Source: Baia soyae (GTDB lineage Bacteria > Bacillota > Bacilli > Thermoactinomycetales > Thermoactinomycetaceae). From it: a stretch of DNA of 37,312 nucleotides. Of this stretch, positions 14,036-33,449 are shown piece after piece. Every line of letters starts with the position of its first letter. The first letter of the stretch is position 1. The DNA lies in the NCBI RefSeq assembly GCF_004341445.1, contig NZ_SLXV01000029.1:1-37312 (forward strand). Direction: 5' to 3'. The position numbers and the translations under genes were made by a program. The notes below the pieces were generated by a model. It ran no database searches and was not told where the DNA came from. It saw only the letters and a program-made list of their open reading frames with translations.

Positions 14036-15175
14036 ATGAAATCGTTTAAGGAAACATGGTTGACTAGATGGAGACGTATACGGGGAAATAAGAGGCTTAT
14101 TTTTAAAGGAAAGATGATCCTCCTCTTCATCGCGGGCTTTCTATTATTATTGGCGATCCCGGCGGTTCTGGTGGGATTTGGGTCAAATGGGGAACCTGTT
14201 GTGGCTGGGCAAGGAAGGCATGAGAAGGAAATGAGTCCTGGTACGCAGAAAGCACAGGCCCAAGTAACAGACTCGAAGAAGGCGAATACTTATAATCCAA
14301 ATGTACGGGTGTATTTGTCTAAAGAGAAGAAAGTGATCTCCCTTCCATTGGAGACCTACTTAGAGGGGGTTGTTGCCGCAGAGATGCCAATTACGTTTGA
14401 GGTGGAAGCACTTAAAGCACAAGCGATGGCGGCACGGACTTTTGTGGTTAATCGCTTGGAAAAAGGCTCTACGGTGAGCCTAACATCATATGGGCTTCCT
14501 CATCAATTAGCAGACGTAACGGATACGGTGCAACATCAAGCTTATTCAACAGATGACAAATTAAGAAATCAATGGAAAGGCCGCTATCAAGAGTATAAGA
14601 CGAAGATAAAACAGGCTATTGAAGGAACGAGAGGGCAGATTTTAACTTATCAGGGCAAGCCGATTTATGCCGCGTTTTTCTCTACAAGTAATGGTAGAAC
14701 TGAAAACTCTGAGGAATACTTTACGGCTAAGTACCCATATCTCGTCAGTGTTGACTCATCATGGGATCGTTCCTCCCCTAAGTTTGAGCGAGAAGCTACA
14801 TTCCCTCTATCTGAAGTCTTTTCCAAACTGGAGAATCAAACGAAAAAGCCGTTAGATGTGGCAGTATCGGCATTCCAAGCCGGAAGCCAAATGAAAGTCG
14901 TGAAGAAGACAACGGGGAACCGTGTTGCTAATTTGAGTATTGGTGATAAGAGCTTTTCTGGTAGAGAAGTGCGTGAAGCTCTTGGACTCGCTTCCTCTGA
15001 CTTTACTTGGAAGCAAGATGGCGACAAGATTACATTTACTACATATGGCTATGGTCACGGGGTAGGTCTTAGCCAATGGGGTGCTAATCTAATGGCGCAG
15101 ACGGGTGCAAAAGCGGACAAAATCGTTAAGCATTATTATCAAGGTATTCAGATTAGTGAGTTTGAGAAGAAGTAG
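14036..15175 (+). CDS. spoIID: Stage II sporulation protein D (SpoIID/LytB family)
   Basis: SpoIID is a membrane-anchored lytic transglycosylase of the DMP machine that thins septal peptidoglycan during engulfment. The 379-aa protein has a basic cytoplasmic N-terminus, one membrane helix (about 26-48) and an extracellular SpoIID domain. Visible motifs are PLETYLEGVVAAEMP with the catalytic-region glutamates, ALKAQAMAARTFVVN and the C-terminal YGYGHGVGLSQWGA. Start ATG 14036 has AAGGGGG 6 nt upstream; ATG 14030 is too close to it. A weak SigE-like -10 (CATAGAGT, 13998-14005) is present without a clear -35. Confidence 0.95.
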   Translation: MKSFKETWLTRWRRIRGNKRLIFKGKMILLFIAGFLLLLAIPAVLVGFGSNGEPVVAGQGRHEKEMSPGTQKAQAQVTDSKKANTYNPNVRVYLSKEKKVISLPLETYLEGVVAAEMPITFEVEALKAQAMAARTFVVNRLEKGSTVSLTSYGLPHQLADVTDTVQHQAYSTDDKLRNQWKGRYQEYKTKIKQAIEGTRGQILTYQGKPIYAAFFSTSNGRTENSEEYFTAKYPYLVSVDSSWDRSSPKFEREATFPLSEVFSKLENQTKKPLDVAVSAFQAGSQMKVVKKTTGNRVANLSIGDKSFSGREVREALGLASSDFTWKQDGDKITFTTYGYGHGVGLSQWGANLMAQTGAKADKIVKHYYQGIQISEFEKK

Positions 15176-19946: not shown

Positions 19947-20255
19947 CGTTACATCCCTCCTGACGATATGCTGTGCTACTATGTACAAGTGTTCACAGGT
20001 AGTTTGCGATTGTTAAATAGGGTTTTATACGGCTCATACTATGGAAGATTCCAGAGATTGTGGGTAACTTATAATACATATTTGAAAAAGTGCACTCCTT
20101 TGTAGTGTGCTATCCAAAAGATTTCAGTTATGTTACAGTGAGACTGTAGTTTGTAATCTTTCTGTAACATTAGGGACGTAAATCATCGTTTGTTAGAGGT
20201 ACAATGAGAGTGAATATCTATATATGGAACAAGTTGTCGGAAATGAGGGAGATCT
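19947..20255 (+). promoter_or_regulatory. Promoter and regulatory region of the first polysaccharide operon
   Basis: No gene lies here. A 9-bp perfect inverted repeat, ATGTTACAG (20130-20138) and CTGTAACAT (20162-20170), encloses TGTAAT (20152-20157), which is followed after 5 nt by TGTAAC (20163-20168). A -10-like TACAAT lies at 20200-20205 with no recognisable -35, suggesting activator dependence (inference). The repeats end about 30 nt upstream of this -10. Related arrays precede the units at 29868 and 30830. Confidence 0.5.
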
Positions 20256-21293
20256 ATGGTACGCTATGGTATTGTAGGCTGTGGTCATATTGCTAAGAAG
20301 CACGTTTCAGCGATTCAAGCTGATCCTGGAGCTGTTCTTGTGGCAGTATGTGACACGAATGAAGAGCGTTTAAAGGAATTTACAATCGATGGAGTCATCG
20401 GATATACGGATCTGGCTGACATGTTAAAAGCGGACATCGATGTTGTATCGATTTGTACACCAAGTGGTCTGCATCCTGCGCTTACGATCCAAGTGGCTGA
20501 AGCTAAGAAGCATGTCATCGTCGAAAAGCCAATGGCGTTAACGCTAGAAGATGCTGATCGGATGATTGACGCGTGTGAGGAAAATGGTGTCAAGATGGCA
20601 GTGGTCCATCCAAACCGCTTCCGCCCGGCTATCGTAGAACTACGGAAACAAATTGAAAATGAAAAATTCGGGACCATCGGTCATGCCAACGCAACCGTTC
20701 GATGGAATCGGAATCAAGCATATTATGATCAAGCGCCTTGGCGTGGAACCAAAGCGATGGATGGTGGAGTCCTGATGAATCAAGCGATTCATAATATGGA
20801 CTTGCTTCTATGGATGATGGGGGACGTGGATGAAGTTTATACATACGACGCGACCCGGATTCGTCAGATTGAAGCAGAAGATACTTCTATCTCTGTGATC
20901 CGCTTTCAAAATGGAGCACTCGGCGTGCTAGAAGCGGCAGTTACGATTTATCCGAAGAACTTAGAAGAATCATTAAGCATCTTTGGTGAAAAAGGTAGCG
21001 CCGTTGTGGGTGGCCCAACTGCGAACTGGATTAAGACGTGGGACTTTGAAGGTCTGACGGAAGAGGAAGTGGCACAAGTGAAAGAGCAAATTACACAAGA
21101 TCCATGGGGCATGCCGGGTCATGAGTGTATTATTCGCGATATGACACTTGCGATTACAGAAGACCGTACTCCGATTGTCTCTGGCACAGAAGGCCGTGCT
21201 GCACTTGGCTTAGTTGTAGCTTGTCAGATGTCGGCTGAATCAGGTAAACCAATCAAAATGAGTACGTTAAAACGAAATATTTTAACCAAATAA
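20256..21293 (+). CDS. Gfo/Idh/MocA oxidoreductase, WbpB/WlbA-like
   Basis: WbpB/WlbA enzymes oxidise C3 of UDP-N-acetylglucosaminuronate so that an amino group can be added. The 345-aa protein has the Rossmann motif GIVGCGHIAKKH at the N-terminus, the EKPMAL motif with the catalytic-region Lys, and the WlbA-like block AYYDQAPWRGTKAMDGGVLMNQAIHNMD. GAGGGAG precedes ATG 20256. The three following genes supply the aminotransferase, dehydrogenase and acetyltransferase of the same pathway, which makes this substrate assignment more likely than for an isolated Gfo/Idh gene. It is first in an eight-gene unit ending at 29634. Confidence 0.88.
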   Translation: MVRYGIVGCGHIAKKHVSAIQADPGAVLVAVCDTNEERLKEFTIDGVIGYTDLADMLKADIDVVSICTPSGLHPALTIQVAEAKKHVIVEKPMALTLEDADRMIDACEENGVKMAVVHPNRFRPAIVELRKQIENEKFGTIGHANATVRWNRNQAYYDQAPWRGTKAMDGGVLMNQAIHNMDLLLWMMGDVDEVYTYDATRIRQIEAEDTSISVIRFQNGALGVLEAAVTIYPKNLEESLSIFGEKGSAVVGGPTANWIKTWDFEGLTEEEVAQVKEQITQDPWGMPGHECIIRDMTLAITEDRTPIVSGTEGRAALGLVVACQMSAESGKPIKMSTLKRNILTK

Positions 21294-22432: not shown

Positions 22433-23767
22433 GTGACAAACGTGTTACTAGAGAAATTAGAGAATCGATCCGCTGTGATCGGAGTAGTAGGGCTTGGTTA
22501 TGTGGGTTTACCACTCGCAGTAGAGAAAGCAAAAGCAGGATTTCGTGTCATCGGCTTTGATGTGTTAAAACATCGTGTGGATGAAGTAAACCAAGGCATT
22601 AACTATATCGGTGATGTTGTCGATGAAGAATTAAAAGAGTTAGTGGCCAGTGGCAAGATTATGGCAACGACGGATTACTCTAAGATTGGGGAAGTCGATG
22701 CAGTAGCGATCTGCGTTCCTACTCCTTTGGATAAATATCAACAGCCAGATGTTTCGTATGTAGAGTCATCTAGTAAAGATATCGCGAAATATTTACATTC
22801 GGGAATGTTAGTTGTCTTAGAAAGTACAACCTATCCAGGCACAACAGAGGAAGTAGTAGGCCCGATCTTAGAAGCAACTGGCTTGAAAATAGGTCAAGAT
22901 TTCTATCTAGCTTACTCTCCAGAACGTGTCGATCCGGGTAATAAAACCTTTAATACCAAAAACACACCAAAAGTAGTAGGCGGTGTGACAGCAGATTGTA
23001 CGAAGGTAGCAGCTGCGATGTACCGTGCGGTATTAGAAGGGGAAGTTCACGAAGTATCGAGTCCGAAAGTAGCGGAAATGGAGAAAATTTTCGAAAACAC
23101 CTTCCGTAACATTAACATCGGACTTGCCAATGAAATGGCGATTCTCTGTCATAAGATGGGGATCGATATCTGGGAAGTGATCGATGCCGCTAAGACCAAA
23201 CCATACGGATTTATGGCGTTCTATCCGGGACCAGGGCTAGGTGGACACTGTATTCCAATCGACCCATTCTATTTGACTTGGAAAGCACGTGAATATAATT
23301 ATCACACTCGCTTAATCGAATGTTCAGGTGAAATTAATAATGCAATGCCAGAATTTGTGGTAGATCGTTCGATGAAAATCTTAAATCGATATGGAAAGGC
23401 ACTCGCAGGTTCTAAAGTACTTGTACTTGGCGTGGCTTATAAAAAAGATATCGATGATATGCGTGAGTCTCCGGTGCTTCCGATTTTAGAGTTGCTTGAG
23501 CTTTATAAAGCGGACGTTGAAGTAGTTGACCCACATGTACCCTCTTTCCGCTTCTCACATAGTGCAGATGCAAAAACGGTGGAAACAGTAGAACTGACAG
23601 CAGAGCGTTTGCAAAATGCGGATCTGGTACTGCTTACTACGGATCACAGTGCCTTTGATTATGAATTGATTGCACGAGAATCGAAAGTGATCTTTGATAC
23701 ACGTAATGCTTTTAAAGGTGTAGGTATTTCTACTTCCGACATTCAGGCAGACTACGAAAAATTATAA
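22433..23767 (+). CDS. Nucleotide sugar 6-dehydrogenase, WbpA-like (UDP-GlcNAc type)
   Basis: It oxidises C6 of a UDP-sugar to the uronate with NAD+. The 444-aa protein has GVVGLGYVGLPLA (NAD binding), ESTTYPGTTEE and the catalytic Cys273 in GPGLGGHCIPIDPFY. The HCIPIDP form is that of UDP-GlcNAc/UDP-ManNAc dehydrogenases (WbpA/WecC), not the CFPKD of UDP-glucose dehydrogenases. Start GTG 22433 follows AAGGGGG. In the proposed pathway it acts first, on UDP-GlcNAc, although its gene is third. Confidence 0.92.
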   Translation: MTNVLLEKLENRSAVIGVVGLGYVGLPLAVEKAKAGFRVIGFDVLKHRVDEVNQGINYIGDVVDEELKELVASGKIMATTDYSKIGEVDAVAICVPTPLDKYQQPDVSYVESSSKDIAKYLHSGMLVVLESTTYPGTTEEVVGPILEATGLKIGQDFYLAYSPERVDPGNKTFNTKNTPKVVGGVTADCTKVAAAMYRAVLEGEVHEVSSPKVAEMEKIFENTFRNINIGLANEMAILCHKMGIDIWEVIDAAKTKPYGFMAFYPGPGLGGHCIPIDPFYLTWKAREYNYHTRLIECSGEINNAMPEFVVDRSMKILNRYGKALAGSKVLVLGVAYKKDIDDMRESPVLPILELLELYKADVEVVDPHVPSFRFSHSADAKTVETVELTAERLQNADLVLLTTDHSAFDYELIARESKVIFDTRNAFKGVGISTSDIQADYEKL

Positions 23768-29634: not shown

Positions 29635-29771
29635 CATACGCTTCTATATAACAAACTGTGGACCAAGCAGAGCTCGTTACGAACCGATACATAAATCGCT
29701 CAAGCTGTAACAAAACGTCTATTGTTATTTAGGCCCTCCTGGAGTATACTGTGTACATTATAGGCTTGAAA

Positions 29772-29820
29772 CATTACTGTAATGTTACTGTTACTTTTGT
29801 AATCTAACTATGAGTATAAA
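29772..29820 (+). promoter_or_regulatory. TGTAAT/TGTTAC array before the sugar transferase
   Basis: The region holds the palindrome CATTACTGTAATG (29772-29784), two TGTTAC units (29783-29788 and 29789-29794) and TGTAATCT (29798-29805), then TATAAA (29815-29820) as a possible -10. The array resembles those before 20256 and 30830. A TTGACA at 29824 has no -10 at 16-18 nt and is not used here. Confidence 0.45.
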
Positions 29821-29867
29821 CTGTTGACAAACATAGATGATTTATAGCGATCAGGAGTGAATAGCAG

Positions 29868-30512
29868 ATGCGTTTGAAGGCGTCAGTCGAAAACGATGCA
29901 AGTGTTTTGACAGGAAAATTAGGAGTTGCTTCTATGATCTACTCAATCGTTAAACGGGCGTTTGAGGTCCTCTTCTCACTAGCCCTGCTCATCTTTACCT
30001 TACCTGTCCTCGTTCTCTCAGCGATTGCGATTAAAATGGAGTCTCCTGGATCTGTTTTCTACAAGCAAGAGCGAGTTGGACTTCAAGGGAAGAAATTTTG
30101 GATTTATAAGCTACGTTCTATGCGTACAGATGCTGAGAAAAACGGCCCACAGTGGGCGGCTAAAAACGATCCTCGTGTTACACAGGTAGGTAAATTTATT
30201 CGTAAGACGCGAATTGATGAGCTTCCTCAGATTATCAACGTATTGAATGGGGATATGAGCTTAATCGGGCCTCGTCCCGAACGAGATTGTTTTACGGAGC
30301 AATTTGAACAAGAGATTCCTGGATTTAAGAAACGCTTGTTAGTGAAACCAGGCCTTACTGGATGGGCGCAGGTAACAGGTGGTTATGAAGTGACCCCGCG
30401 TGAAAAGTGGGAGCAAGATATGTATTATATTCAAAATCAATCCGTTGCCTTGGATCTACGTATTTTACTCCGAACGGTTTGGGTTGTCTTATCAGGAAGC
30501 GGTGCAAGATAA
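29868..30512 (+). CDS. Polyprenyl-phosphate sugar-1-phosphate transferase (initiating enzyme)
   Basis: The bacterial sugar transferase family moves a sugar phosphate from a UDP-sugar to undecaprenyl phosphate, starting the repeat unit. The 214-aa protein has a membrane segment (about 29-53), KMESPGSVFYKQERVG, YKLRSMRTDAE, DELPQIINVLNGDMSLIGPRPE and PGLTGWAQVTG. Two starts are credible: ATG 29868 (AGGAGTG, 10-nt gap) and ATG 29934 (TTAGGAG, 8-nt gap). The second gives 192 aa beginning MIYSIVKRAFE, the usual family N-terminus. Its stop lies in the terminator stem. It is monocistronic, so initiation of polymer synthesis can be controlled separately. Confidence 0.92.
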   Translation: MRLKASVENDASVLTGKLGVASMIYSIVKRAFEVLFSLALLIFTLPVLVLSAIAIKMESPGSVFYKQERVGLQGKKFWIYKLRSMRTDAEKNGPQWAAKNDPRVTQVGKFIRKTRIDELPQIINVLNGDMSLIGPRPERDCFTEQFEQEIPGFKKRLLVKPGLTGWAQVTGGYEVTPREKWEQDMYYIQNQSVALDLRILLRTVWVVLSGSGAR

Positions 30513-30562
30513 AAAGAAAACACGGATACCATCTCATGATGATCCGTGCTTTCTTTTTATCT
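30507..30562. terminator. Terminator after the sugar transferase gene
   Basis: Arms 30507-30527 and 30542-30562 are complementary at all but one position (21 nt, loop 14 nt), and the left arm includes the stop codon. A-rich and T-rich ends on either side suggest it works in both directions, also for the 36-aa gene. Confidence 0.85.
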
Positions 30563-30576
30563 GACTGTGACTCACA

Positions 30577-30687
30577 TTAGAATATCAGACGAAGTCCTGC
30601 ATACATCAGTAACCAAAACGGTACACTGATCCCAGCGGCATTCATGACACCAATCCAAAATGATTTACCAACGACTGGATATTCCAT
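30577..30687 (-). CDS. 36-aa single-TM micro-protein
   Basis: I do not recognise it. The minus strand reads GGAGGTG, 6 nt, ATG (30687), then 36 codons and TAA. The protein, MEYPVVGKSFWIGVMNAAG followed by a hydrophobic C-terminal stretch, is one membrane helix (about residues 10-35) with a single Lys and a single Arg. A -10-like TATAAT (plus 30720-30725) lies upstream. The near-perfect ribosome binding site and the downstream shared terminator favour a real gene. It diverges from the wzy copy 2 unit. Confidence 0.6.
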   Translation of the reverse strand: MEYPVVGKSFWIGVMNAAGISVPFWLLMYAGLRLIF

Positions 30688-30746
30688 GTGAGGCACCTCC
30701 GTTTTCGCTTTGTAAACTTATTATACGCCACGATATACTCCTTTAG

Positions 30747-30795
30747 TTACATTTGTCGAACTTGTTAACAAAATGTAATCTACAAGTAACATAAT
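30747..30795 (+). promoter_or_regulatory. TGTTAA-TGTAAT-AGTAAC array before the second wzy unit
   Basis: TGTTAA (30763-30768), TGTAAT (30774-30779) and AGTAAC (30785-30790) recur with exact 5-nt gaps, an 11-bp period. TTACATTT (30747-30754) and AAATGTAA (30771-30778) form an inverted repeat. A possible -10 CATAAT lies at 30790-30795. On the minus strand the units read GTTACT, ATTACA, TTAACA, resembling PhoP-box spacing. Confidence 0.5.
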
Positions 30796-30829: not shown

Positions 30830-32245
30830 GTGGATCAGTTGTTGCTTCGAAAACAAGATCGATTGGAAAAGATTTTCTATTTTATGATTGCATTTGGGCT
30901 GATCGGCCCGACACTTGGAATAGGTACAGGGGACTTTCGGCTTACCTTTTTTCGGATTGCTTTTTTCGTTTTAGCTGTAGGTACTTTTATACATCTTGTT
31001 TGGAATAGAAAGTACATAAACCATAAGCAAAATAGAGAACTAACTACCATCTACCAAGTGCGTTGGGCTGGAGTTTTCTTCTGTTTTTGGCTTCTTTATG
31101 CAATCATTTCACTCACTTGGGCGGTTAGCTTGAAAGATGGTATCCGATATTTGATCTATCTTGGAATGATGCTTGCGCTCACTTTCTCTTTCCCGTTCTT
31201 TATCCGTACATATGAAAGTCTTTGGAAAACAGCAAAAACTCTTGTAGCAGTATATGCCATGATTATCGGTTATGCTGTTTTCGAGTCGATGACCTTTATC
31301 CATTTACCCGCTTCTAGGGGTTATAATTCTGAATTTGTAAGTGTTGTCACTTCTGTTTTTACCAATCAAAATGACTTGGCTACGTTTATTACGTTGGCTC
31401 TGCCATTTCTGATTACAGCCATCTTTATGTTACCACTACATAAAAAATATAAATGGGTCCTTTATGTTGGCTGTATCTTTAGCCTCTACACCCTTTTCGC
31501 AACCGGCTCACGTAGTAATGTGATGTTAGCCCTGCCGCTTGCTTGTGCAGTGCTATTGCTGGGAGCTTTTTTCGTGGTGAAGCGCGAGAAATGGACGAAG
31601 AAAAACGTGACTAAAGCGATTATAGCGGTCATAGCGGCTGTTATTTTGGCTAATGCAGTAGGTGTTGTTCTTTTGTCAGATAAGGCAAGGGCTGCAAATA
31701 ATGCGAAATTGGCTTCTATTTTCGGCTTTTTAGGTGATTTTCAAAAAGGGGGCTGGGATGCAGAAGGAGAAGGTGTCATTGAAGGAGAAACGGGACGAAG
31801 CGCTACGGTTCGTAAGTTTCTGATTATCAATGGATTCCACTTCTTGCATAAGTCACATTATTTGGGAGTGGGGCCGGGTAATATCGAGCCACTAATGGAA
31901 GGTGCACCCCATGTCGATAAAAAGAATATGCACAATTGGTGGCTAGAAGTCCTCGTTAACTTTGGAGTTCTGATCTTTGTTCTGTACATGGCTGTATACT
32001 TCTGGCTCTTATGGCGTTTATGGAAGTTTGCTTCTTTAAAGCATGGGGCATTCACGAGTCCTGTGATTCGTTGGAGCGCTTTTGCTACATTATCCAGTCT
32101 GATCGGCTTCTTCTTTGGGGGGATGGCGCCTAGTAGCTGCATTCACTATACACCGATGTGGATTACGGTTGGGATCGGATTAGCTGTGGTTGCAATGGGT
32201 GAATTGGAGAGAAAGAAACAGGTCGTTGCACAAGGAAGTGAATGA
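30830..32245 (+). CDS. O-antigen ligase/polymerase family protein (Wzy-like), copy 2
   Basis: The 471-aa membrane protein is a paralogue of the product of 26062: FESMTFIHLPASR, VTSVFTNQNDLATFITLALPF and MHNWWLEVLVNFGV align throughout, and both end in a TPMWI helix. GTG 30830 is chosen because GTGAGGG lies 4 nt upstream and the N-terminus then aligns with copy 1 (VDQLLLRKQDRLEKIFYF against VNEGFLSQRKRLDTLFYL). In-frame TTG 30797 or ATG 30806 would add 8-11 residues. One copy may polymerise and the other ligate the polymer (inference). A GT4 gene follows after 1 nt. Confidence 0.85.
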   Translation: MDQLLLRKQDRLEKIFYFMIAFGLIGPTLGIGTGDFRLTFFRIAFFVLAVGTFIHLVWNRKYINHKQNRELTTIYQVRWAGVFFCFWLLYAIISLTWAVSLKDGIRYLIYLGMMLALTFSFPFFIRTYESLWKTAKTLVAVYAMIIGYAVFESMTFIHLPASRGYNSEFVSVVTSVFTNQNDLATFITLALPFLITAIFMLPLHKKYKWVLYVGCIFSLYTLFATGSRSNVMLALPLACAVLLLGAFFVVKREKWTKKNVTKAIIAVIAAVILANAVGVVLLSDKARAANNAKLASIFGFLGDFQKGGWDAEGEGVIEGETGRSATVRKFLIINGFHFLHKSHYLGVGPGNIEPLMEGAPHVDKKNMHNWWLEVLVNFGVLIFVLYMAVYFWLLWRLWKFASLKHGAFTSPVIRWSAFATLSSLIGFFFGGMAPSSCIHYTPMWITVGIGLAVVAMGELERKKQVVAQGSE

Positions 32246-32246
32246 A

Positions 32247-33449
32247 TTGACGAAAAAAGTTCTGGTTGTTTCACATATGTACCCGAGTGAAGTAAATCCA
32301 CAATCTGGGATCTTTGTACATAATCAGACAAAGGCACTGCGAGATGCAGGATGCGAAGTGCGGGTAGTCGTACCGATTCCGAGCTTTCCTCTGTATAAAA
32401 AGTGGAAGGGTTACACAAACTTACCTAATCGCACAGATCTTGATGGAATCCCTGTCCATTATGTGCCGACAAGGATGTTTCCGGGTGGTTTCTTTTTTCA
32501 TCGCTATGGAGCGTTTTATATACGATCACTACAAACAATCTTGCATCAAATGAAGCAGGAATTTCCGTATGAGGTACTTCATTGTCACACGATTTTTCCA
32601 GACGGCTATGCAGGTGGGCAGTTGAAAGAGGCATTAGGAGTTCCAGTCATTAGCACGATTCACGGCTCTGATATTATGCTTTATCCAAAGAAAAATAAAA
32701 AGATGTATGAACGAACGGTCGAGGCGCTAAGAAAAAGCGATTATCTCATCACGGTAAGTGATCGTCTTCGTAGTGAGGTGGATCAAATGGTGCCAGGATT
32801 ACCAGTATCCACGATCTATAACGGCTTTGATCCTAATCGTTTTTACTCTATCGATCATCTAGAGGCTCGTCTTCGTCTGGGAATCCCATCCGAGGGCAAA
32901 AAGATTATATTTATCGGAAATCTACTTCCTGTAAAGGGAATTAACTATTTGCTACAAGCTTTTCACCGCCTCGTTCAGGATGATCAGCACGAAGGTCTAG
33001 ATCTGTATCTAGTAGGTGCAGGACCCCTCAAAAGTGGCCTAGAGGAAGAGATCACAAAGCTTGGGCTCTCCGATAGGATTCATATGATGGGCAGAAGGCC
33101 TTATGATGAGATGCCACTATGGATGAATAGTGCCGATGTGATTGCTTTAACCAGTCTAAGCGAGGGACTACCTTCCATCCTACTGGAATCAATGGGGTGT
33201 GGACGCCCGATGGTGGCTACGGACGTTGGTGGAATCAAAGAAGTCCTGCAAGATGGCGTGACAGGAAGACTTGCCCGTCCAAAAGATGCAGTTCATATCG
33301 CGCAATGTTTGCATGAAGTGTTAACAATGGACGATGTACGAGAAGAGCTAGGAAAACAAGCATATGTAGCTTCGAGCGGCTTCTCTTTGGAGCAAAATGC
33401 GAATCAAGTGATCGAGTGCTATGAGAAAATAAAATCATTGACATATTAA
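32247..33449 (+). CDS. GT4-type glycosyltransferase, copy 2
   Basis: The 400-aa GT-B protein starts TKKVLVVSHMYPSEVNPQSGI, has STIHGSDIMLYPKKNK in the acceptor domain, and the donor-site blocks IFIGNLLPVKGINYLLQAF and SLSEGLPSILLESMGCGRP with the EX7E glutamates. Start TTG 32247 has AAGGAAGTG at 6 nt, inside the end of the preceding wzy gene, implying coupling. The sequence differs clearly from the GT4 encoded at 27581, so a different linkage is likely. The TTGACA of the met promoter lies in its last codons. Confidence 0.9.
   Translation: MTKKVLVVSHMYPSEVNPQSGIFVHNQTKALRDAGCEVRVVVPIPSFPLYKKWKGYTNLPNRTDLDGIPVHYVPTRMFPGGFFFHRYGAFYIRSLQTILHQMKQEFPYEVLHCHTIFPDGYAGGQLKEALGVPVISTIHGSDIMLYPKKNKKMYERTVEALRKSDYLITVSDRLRSEVDQMVPGLPVSTIYNGFDPNRFYSIDHLEARLRLGIPSEGKKIIFIGNLLPVKGINYLLQAFHRLVQDDQHEGLDLYLVGAGPLKSGLEEEITKLGLSDRIHMMGRRPYDEMPLWMNSADVIALTSLSEGLPSILLESMGCGRPMVATDVGGIKEVLQDGVTGRLARPKDAVHIAQCLHEVLTMDDVREELGKQAYVASSGFSLEQNANQVIECYEKIKSLTY

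Follow-up and report, generated by a model that had tools for sequence, protein, structure and literature searches.

The 37,312-nucleotide stretch of Baia soyae DNA analysed here (the window) carries three arrays of TGTWAH-type hexamers in 11-bp phase, located before the first operon of a glycopolymer locus, before its sugar transferase gene and at a previously unlisted microprotein gene. That the corresponding promoters belong to one regulon, as a sequence-only reading of the window had proposed, was borne out with good confidence, as a common tandem-hexamer element of the OmpR/PhoB type with this 11-bp period also marks a small set of envelope genes in relatives. On sequence grounds, we lean towards the arrays being predicted sites of a single OmpR/PhoB-type regulator that controls envelope assembly in the order, most likely WalR (YycF). 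The most novel part of the finding is the conserved microprotein with an array at a fixed distance from its promoter. Together, these elements outline a sequence-defined envelope regulon for a bacterial order, in which one type of box would unite the conserved microprotein with a class A penicillin-binding protein (PBP) and a glycopolymer locus.

Tandem hexamers in three promoter regions

Array 1 (20152..20168, + strand; TGTAAT-N5-TGTAAC), an exact match to the consensus TGTWAH-N5-TGTWAH, precedes the first polymer operon, whose leading gene (20256..21293, +) encodes a Gfo/Idh/MocA oxidoreductase (PF01408). The sequence TACAAT is found 31 nt beyond this array, at 20200-20205, and arrays of the same type were detected before the same type of gene in several relatives. 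Array 2 (29767..29803, +), before the transferase gene, is composed of TGAAAC (29767), TGTAAT (29778) and TGTTAC (29789) in 11-bp phase plus an extra, out-of-phase TGTAAT at 29798, with the exact tandem (TGTAAT-GTTAC-TGTTAC) at 29778-29794. Array 3 (30763..30790, +) reads TGTTAA-N5-TGTAAT-N5-AGTAAC, its hexamers at 30763, 30774 and 30785 being exactly 11 bp apart, which confirmed the period previously noticed in this region; on the minus strand, it becomes GTTACT-N5-ATTACA-N5-TTAACA, upstream of the microprotein promoter.

The tandem TGTWAH-N5-TGTWAH occurs exactly three times in the window (20152, 29778 and 30763), once per promoter and always on the + strand, against 0.20 occurrences expected in 37 kb, and only one of 100 shuffles reached three. 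In dinucleotide shuffles of each promoter region, the tandem appeared in 7, 15 and 13 of 2000. The earlier observation that TGTAATCT is present in all three promoter regions was accurate to the letter (+ strand, at 20152, 29798 and 30774), but this octamer, which has a fourth copy on the - strand at 15027 within a long ORF, does not by itself exceed chance (four found against 1.67 expected, with 8 of 100 shuffles reaching four), whereas the tandem does. In the whole genome, 34 tandem matches were counted against 18 for a backwards control, so that a lone match elsewhere carries little weight and conservation makes the stronger test.

Conservation among Thermoactinomycetaceae

The comparison set comprised 24 named loci of the family Thermoactinomycetaceae (L051-L074, up to 20 kb each), with Thermoactinomyces sp. 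DSM 45892 and Croceifilum oryzae as the nearest named relatives; some of their species are shared with the numbered genomes also used in this work. The 24 loci contain 55 tandem matches against 14 for the backwards control, and all 55 lie on the + (transferase) strand. A perfect tandem was found at most 310 nt upstream of the transferase gene in 15 of the 24 loci (shuffled mean 0.185, largest 2), and some of the remaining loci have a tandem that is off by one base, e.g. TGTCAT. Downstream of the transferase, at the microprotein gene, a perfect tandem is present in all 24 named loci and in 16 of 20 further loci, the latter scanned with a microprotein pattern that missed L293, L294 and L295.

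A microprotein gene at array 3

Between the transferase gene and array 3 lies a gene for a 36-amino acid microprotein (30577..30687, - strand) with a GGAGGTG ribosome-binding site. The microprotein is hydrophobic, probably forming one membrane span, and matched no Pfam or NCBIfam family. An alignment of 15 homologues revealed invariant M1, K8, F10, G13, N16, A17, S21, P23, W25 and L27. It is present in all 24 named loci and, in the order as delimited by the search tool, was matched in 39 of 42 genomes, two of these matches being weak (E about 1e-4). Its -10 box, TATAAT (30720..30725, -), is located exactly 37 nt from array 3, and the arrangement of array, exactly 37 nt and TATA(A/C)T recurs in 42 of 45 loci, 36 of which are distinct (six duplicates). 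No match to this pattern was found in L293, L294 and L296, the last failing by a single hexamer base. Across 28 microprotein promoters, the information content is 1.1-2.0 bits in the hexamer columns and averages 0.19 in the upstream flank. Array 3 is thus anchored to the microprotein gene and is not primarily an element of the second wzy unit, to which it had been assigned.

By position, array 3 does precede the gene for a second Wzy-type polymerase/ligase (wzy2; 30830..32245, +; PF04932), the start of which is uncertain (GTG 30830, TTG 30827 or ATG 30806). A possible wzy2 promoter, TTGTAA-N18-TATACT, is found at 30710..30739 (+), with array 3 just beyond it; this pattern matches in the window and in L051 but not in L052. 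Ownership by wzy2 was rejected because the gene directly follows the array only in L051 and L052, two of the 24 named loci, while the microprotein and its tandem persist, with metN further on, beyond the array, in 20 of the 24 (in two of the remaining four, the contig stops short). In the other named loci that have a Wzy relative, the gene is upstream of the transferase. Among the compared loci, wzy2 and the next glycosyltransferase gene (30830-33449) occupy this position only in the window, L051 and L052, and, as judged from gene order, are an addition specific to the genus, placed between the promoter of the microprotein and the metNIQ-type genes. Since wzy2 is rare and metN usual after the array, and since the microprotein-plus-array pair persists in L072, where an additional ORF separates it from the transferase gene, wzy2 was probably inserted beside a pre-existing microprotein promoter in the window's genus.

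The heptamer TGTCGAA adjoins array 3 at 30752-30758; it is also found in L051 and L052 and is not obvious in the other loci shown. We take it to resemble a Spo0A box.

Transferase promoter and polymer type

The polyprenyl sugar-phosphate transferase gene (29868..30512, +; PF02397, with TIGR03025 over cut-off) is preceded by a sigma-A-like promoter, recognized by its sequence pattern as TTGTTA-N17-TATACT (29722..29750, +), and the form TTGNNA-N16-18-TATACT is found in 21 of 25 transferase loci (the window and the 24 named loci). In the window, the exact tandem starts 27 nt after the -10 box. In L058, L064 and L067-L070, the distance from the start of a tandem to the end of the transferase -10 box, which follows it, is 63-74 nt, and two of these six loci, L067 and L070, have a downstream tandem as well. 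A possible further promoter behind array 2, close to the ribosome-binding site, was considered by eye; its spacing varies between loci. The long inverted repeat at 30507..30562, with 21-nt arms that are 95% complementary, lies between two convergent genes and is probably a two-way terminator.

The gene set of the locus is, by Pfam, like that of Wzx/Wzy-type glycopolymer loci with a UDP-sugar dehydrogenase, a Gfo/Idh dehydrogenase, a DegT aminotransferase and a hexapeptide acyltransferase; we take this dehydrogenase, aminotransferase and acyltransferase set to be WbpABDE-like. Because the nucleotide-sugar dehydrogenase (22433-23767) reached 140 bits against a TuaD cut-off of 700, teichuronic acid proper is an unlikely product. 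The same enzyme scored higher for UDP-ManNAc/UDP-GlcNAc dehydrogenase models, which makes an N-acetylated uronic acid likelier than a teichuronic-type glucuronate.

Wider target set in the family

A narrow form of the motif, TGTAAYNTTNCTGTNAY, has 44 matches in 23 genomes of the family against 5 for the backwards control, with at least one match in 19 of the 23, and marks mainly the promoters of the transferase gene, the first polymer operon and a class A PBP gene, the identity of the latter being based on PF00912 and PF00905 in L297. In 24 scanned loci, from 30 PBP loci fetched, a tandem is located upstream of the class A PBP gene in 11, none of them from the window's genus. In 10 of the 11, TATAAT follows this tandem at a distance of 39-43 nt (40 nt in seven); none was found in L303.

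The looser core TGTAAYNTNNNNGTAAY, which includes the microprotein sites, yielded 107 matches against 39 for the control. Twenty additional contexts of this core were read; in two, an epimerase-type gene follows after about 60 nt (confirmed by PF01370 in L355 and judged by eye in the other), a few precede an ABC-F-type gene, and several matches fall inside coding frames and look like chance. No phosphate gene was among the names readable by eye in these 20 contexts, of which only L366 (ABC-F) had been chosen for phosphate/autolysin content.

WalR as the likeliest regulator

The tandem is the published WalR/YycF consensus (given in parts of PMC9210968 and PMC5405149), and all three promoters contain it. 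WalR is encoded in the same genome (G000:C3; NF040534 over cut-off) and has a conserved DNA-binding region, closest to that of YycF/VicR/WalR structures, in which a 20-residue stretch agrees at every position with S. aureus WalR and departs from B. subtilis YycF at two. Of these two differences, one (I/V) presumably falls within the helix. The exact consensus, the conserved DNA-binding region and the envelope targets make WalR the likeliest binder, and in these three respects the regulon is like the WalRK (YycFG, VicRK) regulon of Bacillota. The likeness extends to wall-polymer genes, for which regulation by WalR is known or predicted in staphylococci: ltaS is repressed by WalR in S. aureus, as stated in a passage of PMC10746227, and the predicted S. 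epidermidis ltaS site, when reversed, reads TGTAATCT-TATTG..., like array 1 (Table 3 of PMC5405149). Unlike that regulon, the targets here are a glycopolymer locus, a microprotein and, in relatives, a class A PBP, the hexamer spacer is constrained and there is no autolysin enrichment.

A perfect tandem was detected in one of 32 whole NlpC/P60 loci, about the genome background, and a classical WalR autolysin regulon was discarded on this count. Whole loci were scanned because start codons guessed by pattern were wrong in several NlpC/P60, phoP and walR loci. According to a portion of PMC5405149, B. subtilis WalR also controls autolysin genes that lack the consensus. A matrix of the shared motif reached a score of 10 in none of 59 control promoters, comprising 22 phoP, 9 walR, 15 pstS and 13 NlpC/P60 promoters, the last picked from 21; as it was trained partly on transferase promoters, its 23 of 24 there are circular and only the 59 controls are informative. 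That walR's own promoters (0 of 9) show no such site counts against WalR as the binder.

PhoP sites and competing readings

PhoP recognizes paired hexamers of the form TTHAYA-N5-TTHAYA, and neither strand of the window contains such a pair. The WalR and PhoP motifs are near reverse complements, which explains why the sequence-only reading had found the orientation of its proposed PhoP boxes imperfect, and calls for caution, as the two boxes are easily confused. PhoP is encoded in the genome (G000:C14); no family model names it, and its orthologues lie near pstS in relatives. As a positive control, coding-strand PhoP pairs (TTWACA-type) were looked for before pstS and found in 7 of 15 loci; TATAGT follows after 31 nt in five of the six loci in which the distance was read. 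The arrays have other geometries, namely 37 nt at the microprotein, 39-43 nt at the PBP and beyond the -10 box at the transferase; array 1 does sit 31 nt before TACAAT, but in the opposite orientation to the pstS boxes. At the transferase and the first operon, TGTWAH reads on the coding strand, and the microprotein array, on its own coding strand (ATTACA-N5-TTWACA), resembles a PhoP pair. Tandems of TGTWAA were also detected before the PhoP-type regulator gene (L010, G000:C14:27759; 3 of 22 phoP loci, all from the window's genus) and before a DUF47 (PF01865) gene of the window's own genome (L030, G000:C44:3410); both are PhoP-like when reversed and fit PhoP as well as WalR. A GlnR/TnrA-type site, TGTNA-N7-TNACA, was dismissed by eye, as its spacing does not fit.

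A resemblance by chance or low complexity, without function, would agree with the frequency of TGTAATCT alone and with the many single tandem matches expected by chance genome-wide (34 against 18), but this reading is already contradicted by conservation, because the tandem is kept with fixed spacing at the microprotein in the named and further loci even though the 37-nt spacer of that promoter has a median identity of only 41%, and because the narrow motif far exceeds its control (44 against 5); we consider it highly improbable. Within a single regulon, the binder could conceivably be a different member of the OmpR/PhoB family, dedicated to a small set of glycopolymer, PBP and microprotein genes, and this is a possibility that we entertain tentatively: the genome encodes 15 OmpR-type regulators, the narrow motif has only about two matches per genome (44 in 23), and an autolysin link is missing. 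It also counts against WalR that this narrow form, with its constrained spacer (NTTNC), has a higher specificity than the WalR consensus. On the other hand, the targets in the window have no regulator gene as a neighbour, and the tandem coincides with the consensus of WalR, whose DNA-binding region is conserved.

The proposal of a PhoP-driven change to a uronic-acid polymer under low phosphate, with the arrays as PhoP sites, appears unlikely. PhoP is of the same family type with the same 11-bp period, the coding-strand reading of the microprotein array is close to its pair, TGTWAA tandems precede phoP (3 of 22) and the DUF47 gene, and PhoP controls teichoic/teichuronic acid genes in B. subtilis, according to parts of PMC4415409 and PMC13403408. 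The arrays are like the tuaA/tagAD promoters of the PhoPR (Pho) regulon of Bacillus in their 11-bp tandem hexamers and in the control of an anionic wall polymer, but they differ from the family's own pstS PhoP boxes in hexamer, strand, distance to the -10 box and gene set. In addition to the missing TTHAYA pair, none of the pstS (0/15) or phoP (0/22) promoters scored as the motif, and an array beyond the -10 box of the transferase is unlike activation. Because PhoR phosphorylates YycF (WalR) in B. subtilis, as described in a section of PMC13403408, phosphate may still have an effect on the arrays.

Proposed mechanism

The tandems, their 11-bp phase, their conservation, their fixed distance to the -10 box and the set of target promoters are read directly from the DNA, and the signs of regulation were predicted from the position rule of S. 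aureus WalR. According to this rule (section 8 of PMC10746227), a site upstream of the -35 box leads to activation and one between, or beyond, the -35 and -10 boxes to repression, irrespective of orientation. In this model, the tandem hexamers would be occupied by phosphorylated WalR molecules lying next to each other. Activation would be expected at the microprotein promoter, where the array is upstream of the -35 box and 37 nt from the -10 box, at the PBP promoter of relatives (39-43 nt), and at the transferase promoters of L058, L064 and L067-L070, which have an array upstream. Conversely, the transferase promoter of the window, with its array beyond the -10 box, would be repressed, as would wzy2 provided that it is transcribed from the promoter at 30710-30739, since the array there also lies beyond the -10 box. 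At the first operon, either sign may apply: the array lies 31 nt before a TACAAT in the window's genus, but in L071 and L073 it is followed by the start codon within 35 nt. The outcome would be a switch by which an active regulator brings about synthesis of the microprotein and lowers initiation of this glycopolymer.

As a rather doubtful extension, we also propose that WalR or a sister regulator operates an envelope switch throughout the order, turning on the microprotein and repressing the facing transferase gene. The microprotein would then act on the transferase or on the export/ligation machinery and in this way link the production of glycopolymer to that of peptidoglycan at the level of proteins. 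A literature search on Thermoactinomyces and WalR returned nothing related, as judged by title.

Other small ORFs and promoter elements

In L272, L255, L252, L256 and L264, a small hydrophobic ORF of about 56-60 amino acids lies between the PBP array and the PBP gene on the opposite strand. It ends just beyond the array and contains GFWFGLGW in three of the five; the L272 version matched no Pfam family. In the window's genome, ABC-transporter-type genes (ATPase; FtsX-like permease) in L006 (G000:C7:1949) and L012 (G000:C16:42660) have a near-identical promoter stretch, ACAAATGTGTAATCNATCTGTTAT, which perhaps contains sites of a different, antibiotic-sensing regulator.
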